Assembly: GCA_025617375.2 (NCBI GenBank)
Contig: JAMYGW020000009.1
Span: 310,001-374,000 of the forward strand
Source: Acarospora socialis
Lineage: Eukaryota > Ascomycota > Lecanoromycetes > Acarosporales > Acarosporaceae
Length of the DNA stretch: 64,000 nt
Direction of reading: 5' to 3'
A program made the position numbers and the translations under genes. Below, piece by piece: positions 18,496-29,942 of the stretch. The notes below the pieces were generated by a model, which saw nothing but the letters and a program-made list of their open reading frames with translations, did not search any database and had not been told where the DNA came from. Within the stretch, counting starts at the first letter, position 1; each line of letters begins with the position of its first letter.

Positions 18496-18500
18496 TCTAT
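18496..18500. repeat. Target-site duplication TCTAT, left copy (Copia element)
   Basis: TCTAT lies directly before the 5' LTR and matches 29938-29942 directly after the 3' LTR. A perfect 5-bp duplication fits LTR-retrotransposon integration. Confidence 0.9.
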
Positions 18501-18675
18501 TGTCAGAAATCCAGGCCTTATCCGATAGGGATTCTCATAGAGTTTTAGGTCACGTTCTTCAGTAGCCTATTTGAACTTAGTGACACACATCACATATTGT
18601 GTAAATTAATTCTAGATACTCTAGATAATAATGACAACTAATACTATTCACATGCTTTGATCTTCAAGTCTGACA
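18501..18675 (+). repeat. 5' LTR of the Copia element (175 bp)
   Basis: Starts TGTCAGA and ends TCTGACA, giving 7-bp terminal inverted repeats. It aligns without gaps to the 3' LTR, with about 22 differences, all transitions. The left (outer) ~75 bp keep C and G; the right (inner) part does not. Confidence 0.92.
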
Positions 18676-20271
18676 GATTATGAGTTTAACTTGCATGTAG
18701 AATGCTTAAACAGTGAAGAAAGATCTCATTGTTGCTGACATACAGAATTGTCATCAATATTTTAAGAGAAAGTGCAGACTCAACATAAAGATGAATACTC
18801 AGCTGTTCAAAAGTGTTATGAACACTCATGCAACATTTACACAGATAAAAATTGAAATAATAATCTCATGAATGTCAAAATCACATTTAAAACTGAAAAG
18901 ATTTGTCTGAAAACACAACAGTTTTCAATTTTGATGATATCATCATACAAATTGAACATAATGTCATCTACAGATCTGTTCTTTTCACAAATTGTGAAGC
19001 TGAAAGACTCAGCAGACTATTCAGCATGAAAAATATCAATTAAATACATCTTAATAAGCTTCAAATTATGAAATATAGTTAAAAGAACAGATTTAAAATC
19101 AGATTTAACAACAACAATCATGATATCAACAGTCTCATCATCAGACAGTATAACAGCTGCAGTAATGCAAATCACAGATTTTAATTCAGTTCATGATGAC
19201 TGAATCAATAAAAATAACAAGATTATGATCATCATCATTTTTAATGTCATCTCTGAAGTGACAGTCATTATAGATGACATGAGAACTGCAAAAGAAATGT
19301 GAAAGTATCTGCATTCAGTTTATATTTCTTATAAATTTAATCTTCAATATATTCTCTTCATCAATTTCTATGATCTTCATCTGAATCAATTTGCATCAAT
19401 CAACAATTATGTTCTCAAATATAAGAGACTTCTAATTGAAATTGCAACATTTAGTCTCATTATTAATGAAATTTTGAAGATCATTTTCTTTCTCATCAAT
19501 TAAAAATTCTTCTACAATCAATGAATAACAGCAAAATGTTTTACTGTTTAAATCATACTTTCTTCACTCAACAGTTTAATTGCAGAGTTCATCAACAAAA
19601 AACAATTTAAAGAAGAAAACAAGAATCTGACTTTAATAAAGAAGTTCAAAGAAAAAAATAGAAATAAGAACAGAAAAAAGAATAAAAGATCAAAGAACAA
19701 GAAGAAGAACACTGAAAAGAACAAAGAAAAGAATGAAAAGTGCATGCATTATAATAAAGAAGTTCATACAGAACAGAACTGCTGACACAAATACTTTGAC
19801 AAGATGTCAAATAAAATTAAAAAGAAACAGAAAGTCAATAAAAAGAAAGATTTAAATAAAGAACATTGTTTCAATGAAGACTTGTTCATTCTGATGACAA
19901 TCATCATCATTTTTGTCATCAACAAATTGTCATGACTAACTGATTTCACAGTCACACAGCATATATGCTGTGATCATTTCACATTTTCAACAATCAAGAT
20001 GCTCAAAGACAGACTTACAATATAAAAAGTGACTAAATCAATAAATGTTCACAGTATCAGAATCATCAAACTACAACTGAAATGCAAAAATGACAGTGAA
20101 TTTCATCAAATCATCTTGATAGATGTTTATTTCATGTCAAATATCAATCTCAATCTCTTTTTGATAGAAACAGCTGAATTGAAAGACATATTTGTCAAAA
20201 TTCACAAAGAAATACTACAACTAAAGAACAAGATGAGAGAAACAGTTGAATATGCATCTAAATTAAACAAA

Positions 20272-20276
20272 CTGTA
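20272..20276. repeat. Target-site duplication CTGTA, left copy (Gypsy element)
   Basis: CTGTA directly precedes the Gypsy 5' LTR and is repeated at 26469-26473 directly after its 3' LTR. Confidence 0.9.
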
Positions 20277-20637
20277 TGTTACAACCACATTCAAAAAGAA
20301 AAAAACTCACAGATCTAAGATCAGAAGTTTGTTCAGAGTGTGTACAGAAGAAACTGCTAGACAACAGTTATGTAATGATGTGATAACTCAATGATGAGTA
20401 AACAAGCTGAAAGCTCAATCTCTTGACATCAAGACATCAAAACATCAAAAGTGCTCAATACAGAGATGTTAAGCACATTCTATATAGTAGAATCATTTCT
20501 TTTATGAAAATGATCATGTTCAACTTAAATAACTATCTAAGAATTAAAGTTCAGAATCATTTCAGATCAGTTGTTATATCAATAAGTACAAACTCTTAGT
20601 TCTACATATCTGAGAAATCTCAGATTAAAATGTTACA
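20277..20637 (+). repeat. 5' LTR of the Gypsy element (361 bp)
   Basis: Begins TGTTAC and ends TGTTACA. It aligns without gaps to 26108-26468. The differences I see are all C/T or G/A, often with TG in one copy facing CA in the other, as expected from former CpG sites. Confidence 0.9.
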
Positions 20638-23600
20638 CTTTGAATATTCTTACAATATAACAAATATGATGTCTGACACACAGAAGAATGTCTCAATCTT
20701 GTTTTTAAGACAGACTCAAGCAAATTTATCTTTATCATCTACTTCAGATAAAATGACAGCACAATCAGTGATGTCAGCTCAGATGATACAACTATCTGTG
20801 AATGCATCAAAGATTTAGATACTCAATATCTTTGATGAAGAATAAGAAAAGCTGTGAGTCTTTATGATTAAGTTCAATCTGTATATTGAATTCAATCAAT
20901 TAAAGTTTCAGATCAATCAAGAGAAAACATTGTTTGTGATAATCTATCTAGTAGATGCAGTCTTTGACTGAGTCAATTTTAAGTTACACAAATTTCTAGA
21001 AAAGAGTTATGACAAATGCAACATCAATGTGAAGTTCATGTTCAACAACTTCAGCAAGTTTAAAGAGAAACTTAAGAAAGTCTTCAAAATAATTGATGAA
21101 AAGAGAGCAGCAAAGAAACAGATTTATATTTTGTGACAAAGTGAATTGACAACAGTATACATCACAGAGTTTCAGTGATTAGCAATACTTATCAGATAAA
21201 ATAATGAAGCACTTATTTATCAGTATTATTGTGAGTTAAGAAAGTTCATCAAAAACAAGATAGTTTAAGCAGAACAATCAGACAATCTTCAGAAAATGAT
21301 TGATCTGAGCATCAACATTGATAGTTGTCAGTAAAAATGATAGATGAAACAAAAAAAATATTGAATGTCATCTATGATAGAAGATCAAGAAGAAAGCTCT
21401 TAACTGTGAATGAAGTGATACATTTTATCAATAAGACATAGAGAAACAGACTCTATGAATCTTAATATAATTAAGAAACATCATTAGAAGTCATGAAAGA
21501 CTAAATGAACAGAGTATAAATGTTAGTCAGAGTGATTCACTAAGTCTCAGATGACACTGCAAAATGAAATGCAAATGTATTACAACTATGAAAAATCTGA
21601 ACATCTTGTTCAAGAATGCAACAGATCTCAGATGAAAAGAAAGAATATTGCAGCAGTAATGATCAAAATGAAGACAAAGAAATCAAGTGTAGTGCATGAC
21701 ATTCTGAGTTGAACAATCTGTTATAACAATATGTGCTGAGCACATATGAGTGCAAAAGACAGAGTCAGATAATATTCTCAGAAATTATACAAAGATGTGA
21801 AGAAAAGATATGACACAATGAGTCAATCAATTTACAAGAAAAAATTAACTACTCTTATCAAGAAAAGAGTTCTTGATGTCAAGAAAGAAGATAATGCTCT
21901 TAAAGATGACATTGAGAAGATTGATGATCATGAATTTCAGATTGATGAATCTTGAATATTTTTCAATAGTGATACATTCACAGAAGAAAGTTTGAACAAT
22001 GCTGAGACAGAATTCTCAAGAAAGTATTAAGCAAAGATTGAAAGAGATTTAAATGCTCAAAAAAGAATGACATCAAATTACAATACAATACAGAAGAAAA
22101 AGCAAAAGATTTGAAATCAGAAAGCAGAGATATGCAAAGAATTTGATGATCTAATGAGAGATGTATGAACAGTTATGAGAGAACTGATGTCAAAATTTCT
22201 TGTGTAAAAAATCAAGAGTCACAAAATTGAAATATACTTATCTGAAGAATATATTACACAGAATGAAGACAGATGAATTTTCAGTGAAAAATATATGTTA
22301 CTCAAATTTTTACAAAAAGTAAAAGTCTTTGAGAGTCAGTTGCAGATGAAGTACAATCAGTATAAATTTTAACTACACTCAGAAAAATGCATTGAGCAGT
22401 ACAGTCTAAAGTATGTGAATCTTATGATCAAAAGAAAATTAAAATGATTTCAAGAACTTTAAAGATGAGTTGAACAATCAGATGAGTCAAAAAATAAAGA
22501 GCTTTCTTAATGAAACTAAAGAATAAAAAGCTAGCAGTGTCTCAAAGACAGAATGATGATCATAGAATATAAATCAAAATCATGATTAATGAACATCAGA
22601 TCAACACATTGATGAATTTTGAAGTAGATGAAAATATCATGAATCAATAAATAACTGATATGTTAAAATTAGTGACACAGTGAGTGCACTGTTCATTCAA
22701 TATACAAATGATCAATGAAATCATTGAAAGAATTGATGAGAAAATCTGTGTGAAAGTCTCAATTCTTGAAAACTCACAAGAAATAATGTTTGATGTTATG
22801 AAATCAATTGAATATGATGCAGTGCTAGAGATGTTCTGATTGTGTGAAAAAAATTTAAGAATTAATTGAATTACAAAAGAAATATGCACAATCAAGAATG
22901 CATACAAGATTCTCAAACAATCAGAGATGAGCTTATCAGAGCATAAGTCATGAAATTATGAGATACTGCTATTGAATGAAAAGCAATTTAAGTGAATATT
23001 GTTATACTCAATGAGCAAAGATCAACTCAAGAAAGTTAGAACATATCTTGACAAGAATTTAAAGAGAAAATTCATCAAATCATTAAAGTCATCAGCAGAA
23101 TATTCAATTCTGTTTGTATCAAAGAAAGATGACAAAAAATGATTATGTGTCAACTACAGACAACTCAACAAGATAATACATTGAGATAATTATTTTCTAT
23201 CATTGATAGAAGAGTTGCAAGATCAATTGAACAAGACTAAGTAATTCACAAATTTAGATCTTAAAGATGTCTATTATCAAGTTAGAATGAAAGAAGATAA
23301 AGAGTGAAAAACAGCATTCTGAACAAGATATAAACACTATAAATATATTGTTATGTCATTTGAGCTGAAGAATGTCTCAGTCATCTTTCAAAGATTGATC
23401 AATGACATGTTGAGAGAATATCTCAATAATTTTGTGATCACATATCTCAATGATATTCTGATATATTTGGAAAATCTTGAAGAGCACTGTGAACATATGT
23501 AAAAGATATTGACAAAGCTTAACAAGAAAGTCTTGTACATGAAAAAGTCAAAAAGCAGATTCAAGATCAAGAAAGTTAAATTTTTAGACTATGTAATTCA

Positions 23601-26107
23601 ATCTAAACAAATTAAAAAGAATTTAAAGAAGATAGAAGCAGTCAGAAACTGATTAACATTAAAAAGAATCAAGAAAGTACAGATCTTTCTGAGATTGATG
23701 AACTATTATTGAAAGTTTGTATTGAATTATGCAAGAATTGTGAAATCACTGACACATTTAACATGCAAAAGTGAAGAATAACATTGAAATAAGAAGCAGA
23801 AGAATGCATTTCACATATTAAAGAAAAGTTTTAGCAGAATGACACATCTGAAAATACTCAATTCAGCATGCAAGAAGATACTGAAAATCAATGCTTCAAA
23901 TTTTGCAGTAAAAGCATATTTATATCAGATCAAGAAAGAACAACAGAGACTCATTATGTATTAATTTAGAAAACTATCAGAATCTGAGAAAAGATATGAG
24001 ATTCATGACAAGAAACTTCTTGCAATAGTGAAAGCACTGCAAAACTGAAGATCTTATCTTGCAGAAACAAGCAAGCTAATTTAAATCTATACAGATCACA
24101 AGAATCTGAGAAACTTTGCAATGACAAAACAACTCAATTAATGATAAGTTTGTTGAACAGAGCAGTTGACAGACTATGAATTTCAAATTCATTACAAAAA
24201 AAATAATGAGAATAACAAAGCAGATGTCTTGAGTAGATGATCTGATCATGAAGATGTACAAACAGTACACACTGAAATTCTGAGTAAAGACAACAACAAA
24301 ATTCTCATGAAGAACTTAGCAGCAATGCACAAGATAGAGCAAGCTTTTTTAACAAACAAAAAACTCATTAAAATATGTCACTACAGCAGAATCAGAGAAT
24401 ATTTAAAAGTTAAATACACTGAAAATCTAGTGTGAAGAAGACACAATGTTAACAATTTTAGAAATCAAATCATCAAAATGATCACTGTATACAATTCATG
24501 TTAAAGAAACAGAATAAGCTAAGACAAACAATATGATGAAGTAATGTGACTAGATGCATCAAATGTGTCATGAAAGTCAGTTACAATAAACTTCATTATA
24601 AAGCTATCATTGTCAAAAGACTCAGCATGAGAAATGAAATTCAACAGTATATTGACTATAGTGAACAGATTGATCAAGTACACAATGTTTATTTTATTCA
24701 AAGAAACTGTGACAGCATCAGTATTGACATATATCATACTGCAAGAATTGATTAGCAATCATGAATTATCAAAGAAATTTATTATCAATAAAGACAAACT
24801 GTTTACAAACAAGTTTTGAAAAACACTTACAGCAGAACTCAGAATAAAACATAAGATGTTGATGATATATCACTTATAAATAAACAGACAAAGTAAATAA
24901 ATGAATCAGACAGTAAAAACATACTTAAAACACTATGTCAACAAGAATCAGAACAACTGAGTATGACTGTTGTTAACAATACAGTTTGCATACAACAATG
25001 CAAGAAACAAAATCATGAAAGAAACATCTTTCTATATGAATTACAGTTACAATTCAGAGATATGACAAGATCTCAAAGAACATGAATTACAGAGTCAAAA
25101 AGTAATTCTGAATATTGCACAGATGAAAAATCTGCATTAAGATCTAACAAAGTAAATCAAACAGCAGACAGAATGAACAACAGAGACAAAATTATTTGAA
25201 GAAGAAGAAAAAGTATATTTAAGAATAAACAACATACAAACAAAAGAGAGAAGCAAGAAACTAAAGAACAAGAGTATTGAATCATTTAAGATCATATGAA
25301 ACATCAAAGAATTAAGCTATGAGCTAGACTTACTCAAAGAAATGAGAATACACTCAATATTTCATGTGTTCATGTTACAGCATTGCAATCAGTTCATATC
25401 ACTTCAAATCAGTAAAACATCTGTCAAATTCAATAAAGAATATGAAGTCAAGAACATTTTAAAGAAGAGAATGATTAATGAGAAAGTTCATTATCTCATA
25501 AAATGAAAAGATTACAATATCTCAGAAAACATCTGAAAACTCAGAGAGAATCTTAAGAACTGTGTGAGAACACTTTAATATTTTGAGAAAGAAAGTTGAT
25601 ATTAGTTCAGAAGAATGACAACATCAAGTCAATAAGTTATGACACTGTTTGAAAATCTTCATTCTCAGTTTTATCATTATCACTATTAAGTTCAGCAACA
25701 AGACAGTTGATCTTCTGTGCAGCACAACAATTTGTTTGATTTAAAGTTTTTTGAAAATGCATCATCTTGATGACAAGAGCATCAAGAATTGCATTTACAT
25801 CACTTATTTTCTTTCAGAGCAAAAAACAGATTCTGTCAAGAGATTCTTACAAAACTGCAATGTATGAACAATTGTGACAAGTACACTTATTATGTTTCAG
25901 TCTTTCATCAGTCATGACAAAGCAATCAAGATCACAAGCAGTACAAAATTCACAAGAAAACATGACAAGACTATCACTGAGTTGAATTTTCTTTGTGATT
26001 CTTAGATGATTGAAATTTTTAGAAAGCATTGTCATTAATGATGAATGATGTGAATACTCTCACTTATATAGATTCTAGAGAACTAGTGTCTGAGAAGAAA
26101 AAAATGA

Positions 26108-26468
26108 TGTTATGATCACACTCAAAAAGAAAAGAATCTGTAAGTCTGAAATCAGAAGTTTGCTTGAAGTGCATACAGAAGAAACTGCTAGACAGCAGTC
26201 ACATGATGATACAACAGCTCAATGATGAGTAGATGAGCTGAGAACTCAATTTCTCAACATTGAGATGTTGAAACATCAAGAATGCTCAACACAGAAATGT
26301 TAAGCACATTCTATATAATAGAGTCATTTCTTTTACAGAAACAATCATGTTCAACTTAAGTAACTATTTAAAAGTTAAAGTTCAGAATCATTTCAGATCA
26401 GCTGTTATATCAATAAGCACAAACTCTTAGTTCTACATATCTGAGAAATCTCAGATTAAAATGTTACA
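26108..26468 (+). repeat. 3' LTR of the Gypsy element (361 bp)
   Basis: Exactly the same length as the 5' copy and preceded by a purine-rich tract (GAGAAGAAAAAAATGA) that fits a plus-strand priming site. Confidence 0.9.
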
Positions 26469-26473
26469 CTGTA
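26469..26473. repeat. Target-site duplication CTGTA, right copy (Gypsy element)
   Basis: Perfect match to 20272-20276. Copia sequence resumes directly after it. Confidence 0.9.
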
Positions 26474-27644
26474 CTATTTACAGATTCTGACAGATAAGCA
26501 TATTTTTTTTGAGCAAGAGACATTGTCAATCATTGATAATAACAAGATATTATGAATTACATAACATCAATACTTTGAACATCTAGAAGACTCAAATCTC
26601 AAATGTATGTTTAAAAATTTAGATATCAATGACATCAATCTACACAGATTTGCAGATAAGTCACTTTATTTATGCAATATCTGTCTGATGACAAATCAGA
26701 AATAATAGTTATTCAAGCTTTTTCAATGATAAATTATCAAAGTGATCAAACTTGTTCATATTGATGTCATCAGTTTCATTACATCAAAAGTATTTGACAG
26801 ATCAGCATAATATATAGTCTTTATAAATGACTATTCTTGCTGACAATACATTTACAACATAAAGATCAAAGATCAGATCAAAGATAAAATTGCACACTTT
26901 GTTAACATAATCTATACACAGATGCATAAAATCATCAAACATATACAAATTAACAACAGCAAGAAGTTCAGAGATTAAGCTCTTATTGATTGACTATAAA
27001 ACAATGATATAAGTTATGAAACTATCATTCTTTATGAACTAAAACAAAATAATGTCATTAAGCAAAGCAATGATCTACTGACTGAAAAGATTAAAGTCAT
27101 GATAATTGACAGTGAAGTATTACATAATTTGTGACTGAAGACAGTCAAGACTGTCTATTATTTACTGAATTAATTATCAATTTCAGCAATAAAAAACAAC
27201 AAAGTTTCACTTCAGCTACTTTATGAATCACTCAATAACAATGATATGATCAATCTGATCAATCTCAGACATGTATGATTTTTTGAATACATCACATATA
27301 TGCATATTTTTAAAGAGAAATAACATCAAAATGTCAAATTTGAGACATAAAGCAACAAGAACATACTGATAGACTATAAAAAATGCAATCAATATAAAAT
27401 CTGATTGCTGAAGAAAGAAAAAGAAAGTAAAGTGATTAAAATTTAAAATGTTTAATTTGATGAAGAACTCAGAATTTATAACTTGAATATGAATCTCAAA
27501 CTACTCAATACTTTCAACTCTGAATTCTCTGAGACACAGATTAATGATTTAAACTCTAAAATTTCAATAAATAATGCAACAAGTACAGAGCAAGAAAATA
27601 TAAGCAATAATACTTTACATTCATTCTGTGCACATCATTCTCTT

Positions 27645-27715
27645 ATGCATCAATTGCAAACTTTTTATCTTGTGCATCAATTGCAAACTTCTCATCTTGT
27701 GCATCAGATGCAAAT
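27645..27715 (+). repeat. Short tandem repeat inside the Copia interior
   Basis: About three copies of a ~27-bp unit containing CTTGTGCATCAATTGCAAAC, in a low-complexity part of the element between its integrase and reverse-transcriptase regions. Confidence 0.6.
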
Positions 27716-29762
27716 ATTATTGATATTGATGCATTTATTTTTTATGTCTGACATGAAAAGTCTCTCATCTTCATACAAATCATCATACATATCTTTAAAC
27801 AAGACATCTCAATCAAAAAAGTACAATAAGAAGTTCAACAATGAGATGAAGAACAAGAAAAAGAACATAATGAAACAATAATTGTCAATTAATGTGTCAA
27901 TACTGTCAAAATACTCAGACAGAGAATAAAAAAAGTTCTTAAGATTCAGTCTTGAGATTATTGTTGTCTTACTCACTGTTCATGATGTGTTTCTTGATGC
28001 TGTCATCATCAACATTATGAAAGAGCATGAACTTAAAGTTCAGTCAGACAGTGAATTCAGCATTTATTATGAGACTGTTGTGAGCTTCAGTTTTAAGCAC
28101 TGAAAATAGATTATGAATGACAAAATTAAGTTTTTGAAAGTTAATTTGACATGAAATTTAGTAATACTATTTCTGAATTGTTACACTCTACATGAAAAAT
28201 GAGTCTATCATTATAAACATAATTTTGACAACACAATCATACAGTATAAAGCACAGTGAGTTGTCAAAGACTTTGAGCAACATTTTAACATCAATTACAA
28301 CAAAATATTTGCTGTCATCATCAAGTTCATGATTTACAAAATTATCTTTGTCATTGTTGCATATTATAACTATGAGTTGAAACAAATGAATATTAAGACA
28401 GTGTTCTTGCATGATGATTTGAAAGAGATAATATACATGATACAACTCACTGAATACAAAAAGAAAAAAAAAGTTATGCAGACTGAAGAAAGTCTTATAT
28501 GAGTTAAAACAGTTTTTTCATTTATGATATGAAATAATACACAAGTTTCTTGCTGACAACAGTTATATATGTCTTCACATAAATAATAACATGTTTTTAA
28601 TCAGCAATCTCATCATCACTATTTATATTGACAACATCTTAATGTGCAGATCAAGCAAGAAAGCAATTTACAATTTAAAGATCAAATTGAGCAGTCAGTT
28701 CAAAATGATGAACTGTGAGACATATAAGTACTACTTAAATATGCAGATAATACACAATAAAATTCATTAAATTCTCATTCTGTCACAGAGAATTTATCTT
28801 AAAAGAGTGTTTATCAAATTCAGTCTCAGTAACACAAAATCAGTTCTGATTTTTATGAATTTTGATACACATTTGATACAGATTAAGAAACTCTCTATTT
28901 TACAGTTAATACAGTGATATCAATGTGTTATAAACTTTCTTATATACACAATGACTCAGATGTATTTTGACATTGTCTTTGCAGTATTAATACTCAGTCA
29001 GTTTTTGCACAATCTCAATGAGATGCATTGAAAGATTTTGAAATAAATGTTTCACTATATATGTAACATTCTCAACATCATCATCAAATACAAATTGAGC
29101 TCAAATCATCTTCAACTTTTAAAATATTTGAACTCAAACTAAGACAGAGATCTCAAAACAAGAAGATCTACAACAAGTTACATGTTTCAGTTAACAAATG
29201 AGTCAGTTTTCTGATGTTTCAAACATCAAAAAACAGTCACTCTGTTTTTTACAGAAACAGAATACATGACTGCAACAGAAACAACAAAGAAAGCTGTCTG
29301 AATGTATGAACTATTACAAAAAATAAGATTTAAAAAATTCAATACAGTATCTATTCAAATAAATAATACAGAAATTATGATCTTGATCAAGAATTCTGAG
29401 TTTCATATTCATACAAAACATATCAATATACATCATCATTACATACAGAAAATCAAATTGCAGAGTCTTATTCATCTTGATTACATTCTTATCAGCAACA
29501 TAATCATTAACAAATTTATTAAGTCACTTTTTATCATCAAATTCACACACTTTATTGATCTTATTAATCTTATCTGTCACTAAAGATTCTGTGATTTATA
29601 TGAGAGAATATTGAGTCATTGTTTAATAAACTTCAATAAAGTATGTTTGAATTGTGTCAGAATCAATTGAATCTTTGCAGTAAACTGAGTGATTTATCAT
29701 AAAGATTCATTTTTTTTTTCTTTTTATTCATCTCACTGTCATCAAAACAGTCTGAGAAGATG

Positions 29763-29937
29763 TGTCAGAAATTCAGATTTTATTCAATAGAAATTCTCAT
29801 AGAGTTTTAGATCACATTCTTCAGTAGTTTATTTGAATTTAGTGGTGCACATCACATATTGTGTAAATTAATTTTAGATACTCTAGATAATAATGACAAC
29901 TAATACTACTTGCATGCTTTGACCTCCAAGTCTGACA
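29763..29937 (+). repeat. 3' LTR of the Copia element (175 bp)
   Basis: Matches the 5' LTR in length and ends. A short purine-rich tract (CTGAGAAGATG) lies directly before it at 29752-29762. The last ~30 bp (outer edge) keep C-rich sequence that the 5' copy has lost; the first part (inner) has lost C and G that the 5' copy keeps. Confidence 0.92.
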
Positions 29938-29942
29938 TCTAT
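29938..29942. repeat. Target-site duplication TCTAT, right copy (Copia element)
   Basis: Perfect match to 18496-18500. Normal-composition host DNA follows at once. Confidence 0.9.

Follow-up and report, generated by a model that had tools for sequence, protein, structure and literature searches.

Here we analyse a 64-kb stretch of DNA from Acarospora socialis (contig C9, positions 310001-374000, in an assembly of 31.1 Mb and 38 contigs), which in its full length is called the window. A Ty1/Copia long terminal repeat (LTR) retrotransposon occupies positions 18501-29937 and harbours a Ty3/Gypsy element at 20277-26468, and between them these elements lack nearly every C that would precede C or G. 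We regard it as probable that this is the work of a defence akin to repeat-induced point mutation (RIP), which changes C to T on both strands of repeated DNA, takes C before G or C as its target and has a RID-like gene, L010, as its putative agent. Old copies that are saturated and a few young ones with light damage share one spectrum. The phenomenon is a RIP-like variant: the general RIP features tested here are present, whereas the classical test based on CpA is negative.

Dinucleotide composition and mutation spectrum

Below, CpS stands for C followed by C or G, with CC, CG and GG counted jointly. Positions 18676-29760 contain no CG, one CC (20285) and one GG (23469), whereas CA (1079, observed/expected 1.64) and TG (737, 1.59) are abundant; CT is found 474 times (1.03), TA 819 times (0.59) and AG 822 times. 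The flanks in the window are ordinary, with CC, CG and GG at 0.88-0.99 of expectation. These counts confirm what a first-pass annotation of the same sequence had noticed, namely a near-absence of CG, CC and GG with CA and TG plentiful. The extent it gave, 18676-29760, is indeed damaged, but its limits are too narrow since the damage reaches slightly into both LTRs: the exact CpS-free interval, with the single CC and GG as exceptions, is 18567-29843. Its base content would predict 222 CC, 222 CG and 223 GG, and the lowest sum of the three in 200 shuffles was 612 against 2 observed, so that a chance origin is rejected. The longest gap without CC, CG or GG in the rest of the window measures 82 bp.

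Both common RIP indices, which had been suggested as a check, run opposite to classical RIP. TpA/ApT amounts to 0.60 in the damaged stretch (flanks 0.72 and 0.70) and (CpA+TpG)/(ApC+GpT) to 1.71 (flanks 1.16 and 1.22), whereas classical RIP shows a CpA preference, a raised first index and a lowered second one. Standard RIP tests would therefore miss the damage.

Similar compositions are found elsewhere in the genome. Over 58 places (71,860 bases, three of the places belonging to the window) we counted no CG, 31 CC and 36 GG versus 11,688 CA plus TG; 36 of them are without any CpS and the maximum per place is 10. This count leans to damaged copies because it was made with damaged queries.

A near-undamaged relative of the inner element, L094 (contig C14, 277-281 kb), was the top match of a reverse-transcriptase search in which the best 150 of 435 candidates were scored. 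Its GC content is 47.6% over the locus, it is 70% identical to positions 22857-25072 of the window, and the 2216 bp compared hold 87 CG, 106 CC and 147 GG. Undamaged copies sharing the depleted composition, which the first-pass annotation had named as evidence against its idea, were thus not seen: L094 is ordinary. Among the matches listed there is no other near copy of L094, the next being 82% identical and the rest at most 79% (best 40 of 369 scored).

Thirty damaged inner copies, including the one in the window, were compared with this 2216-bp stretch and C-to-T changes were tabulated by 3' neighbour. CpC and CpG turned out to be preferred, with 5383 of 7287 and (counted per strand) 2545 of 4959 sites changed, over CpT (2715 of 8335) and CpA (2507 of 9577), the latter being the least mutated context. 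A CpA depletion as strong as that of CpG and CpC, which would also have spoken against the idea, was not seen. CpT and CpA, mutated at 33% and 26%, nevertheless exceed the background of 7-9% (A-to-G 8.6%, T-to-C 7.1%), so they are also hit, if weakly. In terms of retention, the inner copies keep 0 of 2474 CG, 1.7% of CC and 0.5% of GG, compared to 66% of CA, 63% of TG and 64% of CT. The 2485 former CpG became CA in 1138 cases, TG in 814 and TA in 225; with CA and TG as the main outcomes, a CpG is a weak target after a single hit. Comparison of the inner copies with one another gives 15.5% transitions versus 1.1% transversions.

A second reverse-transcriptase family, represented by L095-L097, has 32 full-length members of 95-100% identity among the 45 matches listed, the query included (best 33 of 57 candidates scored); the sequence of four copies was read, for one only over part of its length. 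Between three young copies 19 sites vary, each by a C/T transition and none by a transversion. By context these are 16 CpC, 1 CpG, 2 CpA and 0 CpT, where 190, 12, 642 and 493 targets, respectively, were available. Comparing L096 with the diverged copy L104 over 1195 columns yields changes at 29 of 63 CpC, 4 of 8 CpG, 7 of 146 CpT and 7 of 205 CpA, again with 0 transversions among 47 differences; L096 has the C or G in 38 of these 47, although differences within this family are unpolarised. The context bias is significant in both comparisons (Fisher p 8e-13 for the three copies, 1e-18 for L096 versus L104). Since the bias already exists in young copies, the preference for CpC and CpG was present before saturation, and in the young copies examined the process runs ahead of background substitution.

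The young copies that were read are only lightly mutated. L095-L097 are near-identical yet CpG-poor (7 CG, 82 CC and 102 GG in the 3753 bp of L095; 6, 81 and 109 in L096), and CpG loss may thus be partly separate or come first in order. On 12 contigs the family is present in a single cluster or place per contig, a distribution that could be that of a centromere element: C1:2.65-2.80, C2:1.47, C4:1.99-2.00, C5:1.53-1.60, C6:0.68-0.69, C7:1.32-1.36, C8:0.20-0.24, C9:1.25-1.26, C10:0.18-0.27, C11:0.93, C12:0.15 and C14:0.01-0.09 (in Mb).

Timing, borders and strands of the damage

Both LTRs of one insertion are expected to be identical at the time of insertion, and differences between them record what happened afterwards. 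The LTRs of the outer element in the window (18501-18675 and 29763-29937, plus strand) are direct repeats of 175 bp that share 87% identity, carry TGTCAGA...TCTGACA at their ends and lie between two copies of the target-site duplication TCTAT (18496-18500 and 29938-29942). The first 66 bp of the 5' LTR are undamaged and the remainder is damaged, the last CC, CG or GG being at 18566; likewise the outermost 94 bp of the 3' LTR are undamaged, the first CpS past the damaged stretch lying at 29844. These ends are spared together with the flanks, although the borders vary among elements. With the window and 13 outer elements surveyed, the damage in the window is limited to the repeat: flanks are normal and borders fall inside the LTRs.

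The genome yields 33 matches to the outer LTR, which comprise 13 pairs, five unpaired LTRs (one partial) and two small pieces. In 9 of 13 elements four or more CpS remain in the outer part of the 5' LTR where its equivalent in the 3' LTR has 0 or 1 (set aside here are e10, e12 and e13 with none kept and e11 with three). For the outer part of the 3' LTR, at least three CpS are kept where the 5' equivalent has 0-2, also in 9 of 13 (e07, e10, e12 and e13 keep none and were set aside). Because outer LTR ends are spared in 9 of 13 elements, the damage must have followed insertion. Pooled over the elements retained, changes are found at 97 of 112 CpC, 8 of 14 CpG, 32 of 237 CpT and 24 of 234 CpA, while 993 A/T cells show 32 transitions and 25 transversions. 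The L094, LTR-pair and young-family spectra all support the proposal of the first-pass annotation that C before C or G is the target.

C:G-to-T:A transitions were found on both strands, as is characteristic of RIP. At 67 CpG sites where both TG and CA are present among the inner copies, pairwise agreement is 0.614 versus 0.628 by chance. Within an inner copy the strand choice correlates by 0.135 up to 10 bp (shuffle standard deviation (SD) 0.067), and beyond 25 bp the size of the correlation is at most 0.014 (up to about 2 SD). Agreement at chance level and the lack of long one-strand runs show that inner copies were hit separately, and on both strands.

Some further observations concern the borders. 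On the left, 11 of 13 outer elements have lost the bottom-strand GG at LTR column 73 and 11 of 13 the one at column 82, whereas 7 of 13 retain the top-strand CC at column 90, which lies deeper inside. On the right, 5 of 13 retain a GG at column 14 or 48, whereas none of the 13 retains the CC at column 59 or 66. Such an asymmetry would be compatible with an enzyme that travels 5' to 3' along the strand it mutates, though the sites are few and an effect of context is possible. Another feature of many outer elements is that the start of the damage in the 5' LTR and its end in the 3' LTR fall at a similar coordinate (around column 70), and the damaged interval may be set by transcript ends rather than by sparing of the repeat edges. 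Three further inner copies have their ends in damaged flanks and say little on edges; a few CC are kept near their 3' ends. Of the five unpaired LTRs (L087-L091) four are full, of which s3 keeps 22 CpS, s2 14, s4 3 and s1 none; the partial one, s5, was set aside from the count. The many CpS of s2 and s3 are as expected if short repeats escape, whereas s1 and s4 are damaged.

Candidate enzymes and competing explanations

A search for RID- or DIM-2-type genes had been advised by the first-pass annotation, and a profile search of the genome gave four PF00145 matches in three genes. The gene L010 (contig C2, 1420 kb) matches PF00145 across two exons, separated by a GT-AG intron at about 1995-2047, and its catalytic motifs SPPCQ, ENT, QARKRL and QIGNAVPP are intact (intron and motifs judged by eye). 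No BAH match is found in it at E 0.001. The frame ends shortly past motif X, which leaves the methyltransferase domain C-terminal without a long tail. In the accessible text of the sources, to which all citations in this report refer, most members of the RID/Masc1 family are without BAH, and the tail is missing from the Aspergillus and Coccidioides members, among others (PMC2432034, PMC7862722). By its architecture L010 would be a RID/Masc1-like C5-methyltransferase, the only such gene found. A PDB search with L010 returned chains of bacterial methyltransferases, DNMT1 and DNMT2, none labelled RID. The other two genes are DIM-2-like L009 (PF00145 at E 1e-37; BAH at E 6e-7, 29.9 bits versus a cut-off of 30.8) and DNMT5-like L011, in which together with the adjoining L093 PF00145 is followed by SNF2 (PF00176), a RING domain being seen by eye only.

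L010 is the likeliest candidate for the agent. In the scheme we favour, a mutator would convert C to T on both strands of repeated DNA, presumably in the premeiotic phase; the target C would need a G or C on its 3' side, with CpC and CpG as strong and CpT and CpA as weak substrates. L010 would be this mutator, acting on duplicated DNA with an altered target preference. Nearly every C would in the end precede A or T, because a CpG turns once into TpG or CpA and is then a poor target. A RIP enzyme with a different preference, the first of two options offered by the first-pass annotation, is the one favoured by the contexts of the C-to-T changes together with the methyltransferase genes.

Several points weigh against a RIP-like defence run by L010. 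In 3 of the 13 outer elements the damage of both LTRs reaches the edge or almost does so, and in a fourth the same holds for the 3' LTR, so sparing is not universal. CpG is scarce in the young family while CC and GG persist, and part of the CpG loss is maybe separate. The sample of copies is biased to damaged ones by the queries used. Lastly, no genetic link connects L010 with the damage, and the DIM-2-like and DNMT5-like genes are also present.

The persistence of CC and GG in young copies leads to the reading that two processes were at work, CpG being removed by methylation and slow deamination (through the DNMT5-like or DIM-2-like enzymes, whose genes exist in the genome) and CpC/GpG by a RIP-like activity. 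L095-L097 indeed hold 6-7 CG but 184-192 CC plus GG in 3753 bp. Also, a former CpG of the outer LTRs (TATTGTG/TATCATG) is in the same state in both LTRs of 11 of the 13 pairs, which indicates that this CpG was lost before insertion. Nonetheless, per-strand rates for L096 versus L104 are alike (CpG 4/8, CpC 29/63), and as a CpG has both strands at risk its earlier loss can be the work of a single enzyme. The inner copies are moreover independent of one another in their CpG outcomes. We therefore hold the two-process reading to be unlikely. The second option of the first-pass annotation, a further process following the deamination of methylated C, fares accordingly: it is unneeded for CpC, though a separate extra loss of CpG may have occurred.

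Far less credit can be given to the explanation that there was no repeat-directed mutator and that methylated C in silenced transposons simply decayed in the ordinary way over a long time. Such decay typically leaves C-to-T changes at CpG, three DNMT-type genes are present, and substitutions of other kinds have indeed accumulated in the old inner copies (the 1.1% transversions next to 15.5% transitions). The young copies, by contrast, show 0 transversions in 19 and 47 differences, CpC is hit as hard as CpG, and the damage ends within the LTR in 9 of 13 elements.

It might also be argued that an APOBEC-like deaminase edited the complementary DNA of the retroelements before insertion. APOBEC3G is known to edit CC and the targets examined here are retroelements, but both strands are hit, the strand is chosen per CpG without long runs in a copy, and the damage is dated to after insertion by the 9 of 13 elements whose outer LTR ends are unharmed. 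The genome has no APOBEC_N match, which counts for little as 14 control genomes are silent too; altogether we consider such editing highly improbable. A composition native to the elements, although shared by the fetched copies as counted above, is refuted by L094 with its 47% GC and normal CC, CG and GG, while LTR ends of the same insertions retain CC and GG, and it is rejected.

Known systems and anatomy of the nested elements

RIP is directed at CpA in most ascomycetes (PMC2621366; PMC4352252; PMC4981457), and according to a 2025 survey of 1,239 fungi RIP-like defences share this preference (PMC12543289). Like the RID-dependent RIP of Neurospora crassa and most Pezizomycotina, the process described here produces C-to-T changes in repeats on both strands, strongly lowers GC, spares the flanks (in the window) and is accompanied by a RID/Masc1-type gene; unlike it, CpC and CpG are affected rather than CpA, TpA is not raised and the indices are negative. 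In Neurospora it is the repeats themselves that the RID pathway targets (PMC12543289), and the tight borders of damage seen here agree with this.

A further likeness is with Coccidioides (Onygenales), whose repeats are affected especially at CpG and CpC; the precedent consists of one sentence in a review, which as far as accessible comes without tabulated or saturation data to compare (PMC9409882). Its relative Uncinocarpus reesii has raised CA and TG according to another review (PMC7862722). Two 5.8S matches occur in the genome analysed here; the ITS beside one of them (L092) may be closer to Dothideomycetes than to Onygenales, and if so the lineage differs from that of Coccidioides. Hypermutation in Microbotryum (at TpCpG), Tuber and Aspergillus resembles ours in having CpG as a main target, whereas CpC on a par with CpG is unreported in the accessible parts of those sources (PMC2621366; PMC4352252). 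The signatures given by Amselem et al. are CpA, CpT and CpG (PMC4352252). In Botrytis, Sclerotinia and Magnaporthe RIP affects CpT beside CpA, which shows that context varies by species, and the authors link this difference with a motif in RID (PMC4352252). Those fungi have T as the additional 3' base, ours has G or C. In Rhizoctonia solani CpC changes outnumber CpG changes, in genes as well as repeats (PMC4014442). Beyond Coccidioides no precedent for repeat-targeted CpC was found in a literature search that mostly did not cover subscription papers, and a wider precedent is possible. Judging by its title, the study of Neafsey et al. from 2010 is apparently the primary one behind the Coccidioides statement; Clutterbuck 2011 is said to be a survey of ascomycete RIP.

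We tentatively put forward, with somewhat more doubt than confidence, that RIP enzymes comprise at least two target classes (C before A or T, and C before G or C), the second being under-reported, and that here a RID-type enzyme from an ascomycete outside Onygenales drives retrotransposons to an end point free of CpG and nearly free of CpC. Under-reporting would follow from RIP indices and surveys resting on CpA and TpA; one Ascomycota survey used a sliding-window RIP approach (PMC7882544). This genome, a saturated case, is scored as unmutated by CpA/TpA indices, and distribution maps of RIP may consequently miss a class. In addition, saturated, lightly hit and near-intact copies within one genome offer natural material on the choice of the 3' base by RID or a partner.

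Turning to the elements themselves, all on the plus strand, the outer one is assigned to the Ty1/Copia type because its open fragments match RVT_2. Its damaged 5' internal part (18676-20271) has 17 matches in the genome and lacks CpS over the matched portion in 7 of 8 fetched copies. The 3' internal part (26474-29762) carries reverse transcriptase remnants, with one RVT_2 match in 28260-28499 (E 7e-11) and another, slightly under the cut-off, in 28528-28767 (E 6e-7), and a 3' probe gives 20 matches when short pieces are included; the window is counted with both probes. The inner element, damaged throughout, is of the Ty3/Gypsy type given its fragments matching RVT_1 (in 23323-23499, E 5e-7) and the Tf2-1 SH3 domain (in 25300-25503, E 2e-5, below the Pfam cut-off). 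For this element 360 candidate places were obtained, of which 40 were scored and 30 fetched. It is enclosed by the target-site duplication CTGTA (20272-20276 and 26469-26473), and its LTRs are direct repeats with TGTTACA at both ends, the 5' one at 20277-20637 and the 3' one, about 361 bp with its start derived from the repeat offset, at 26108-26468. The one CC to survive, at 20285, falls within the inner 5' LTR, 9 bp from its edge.

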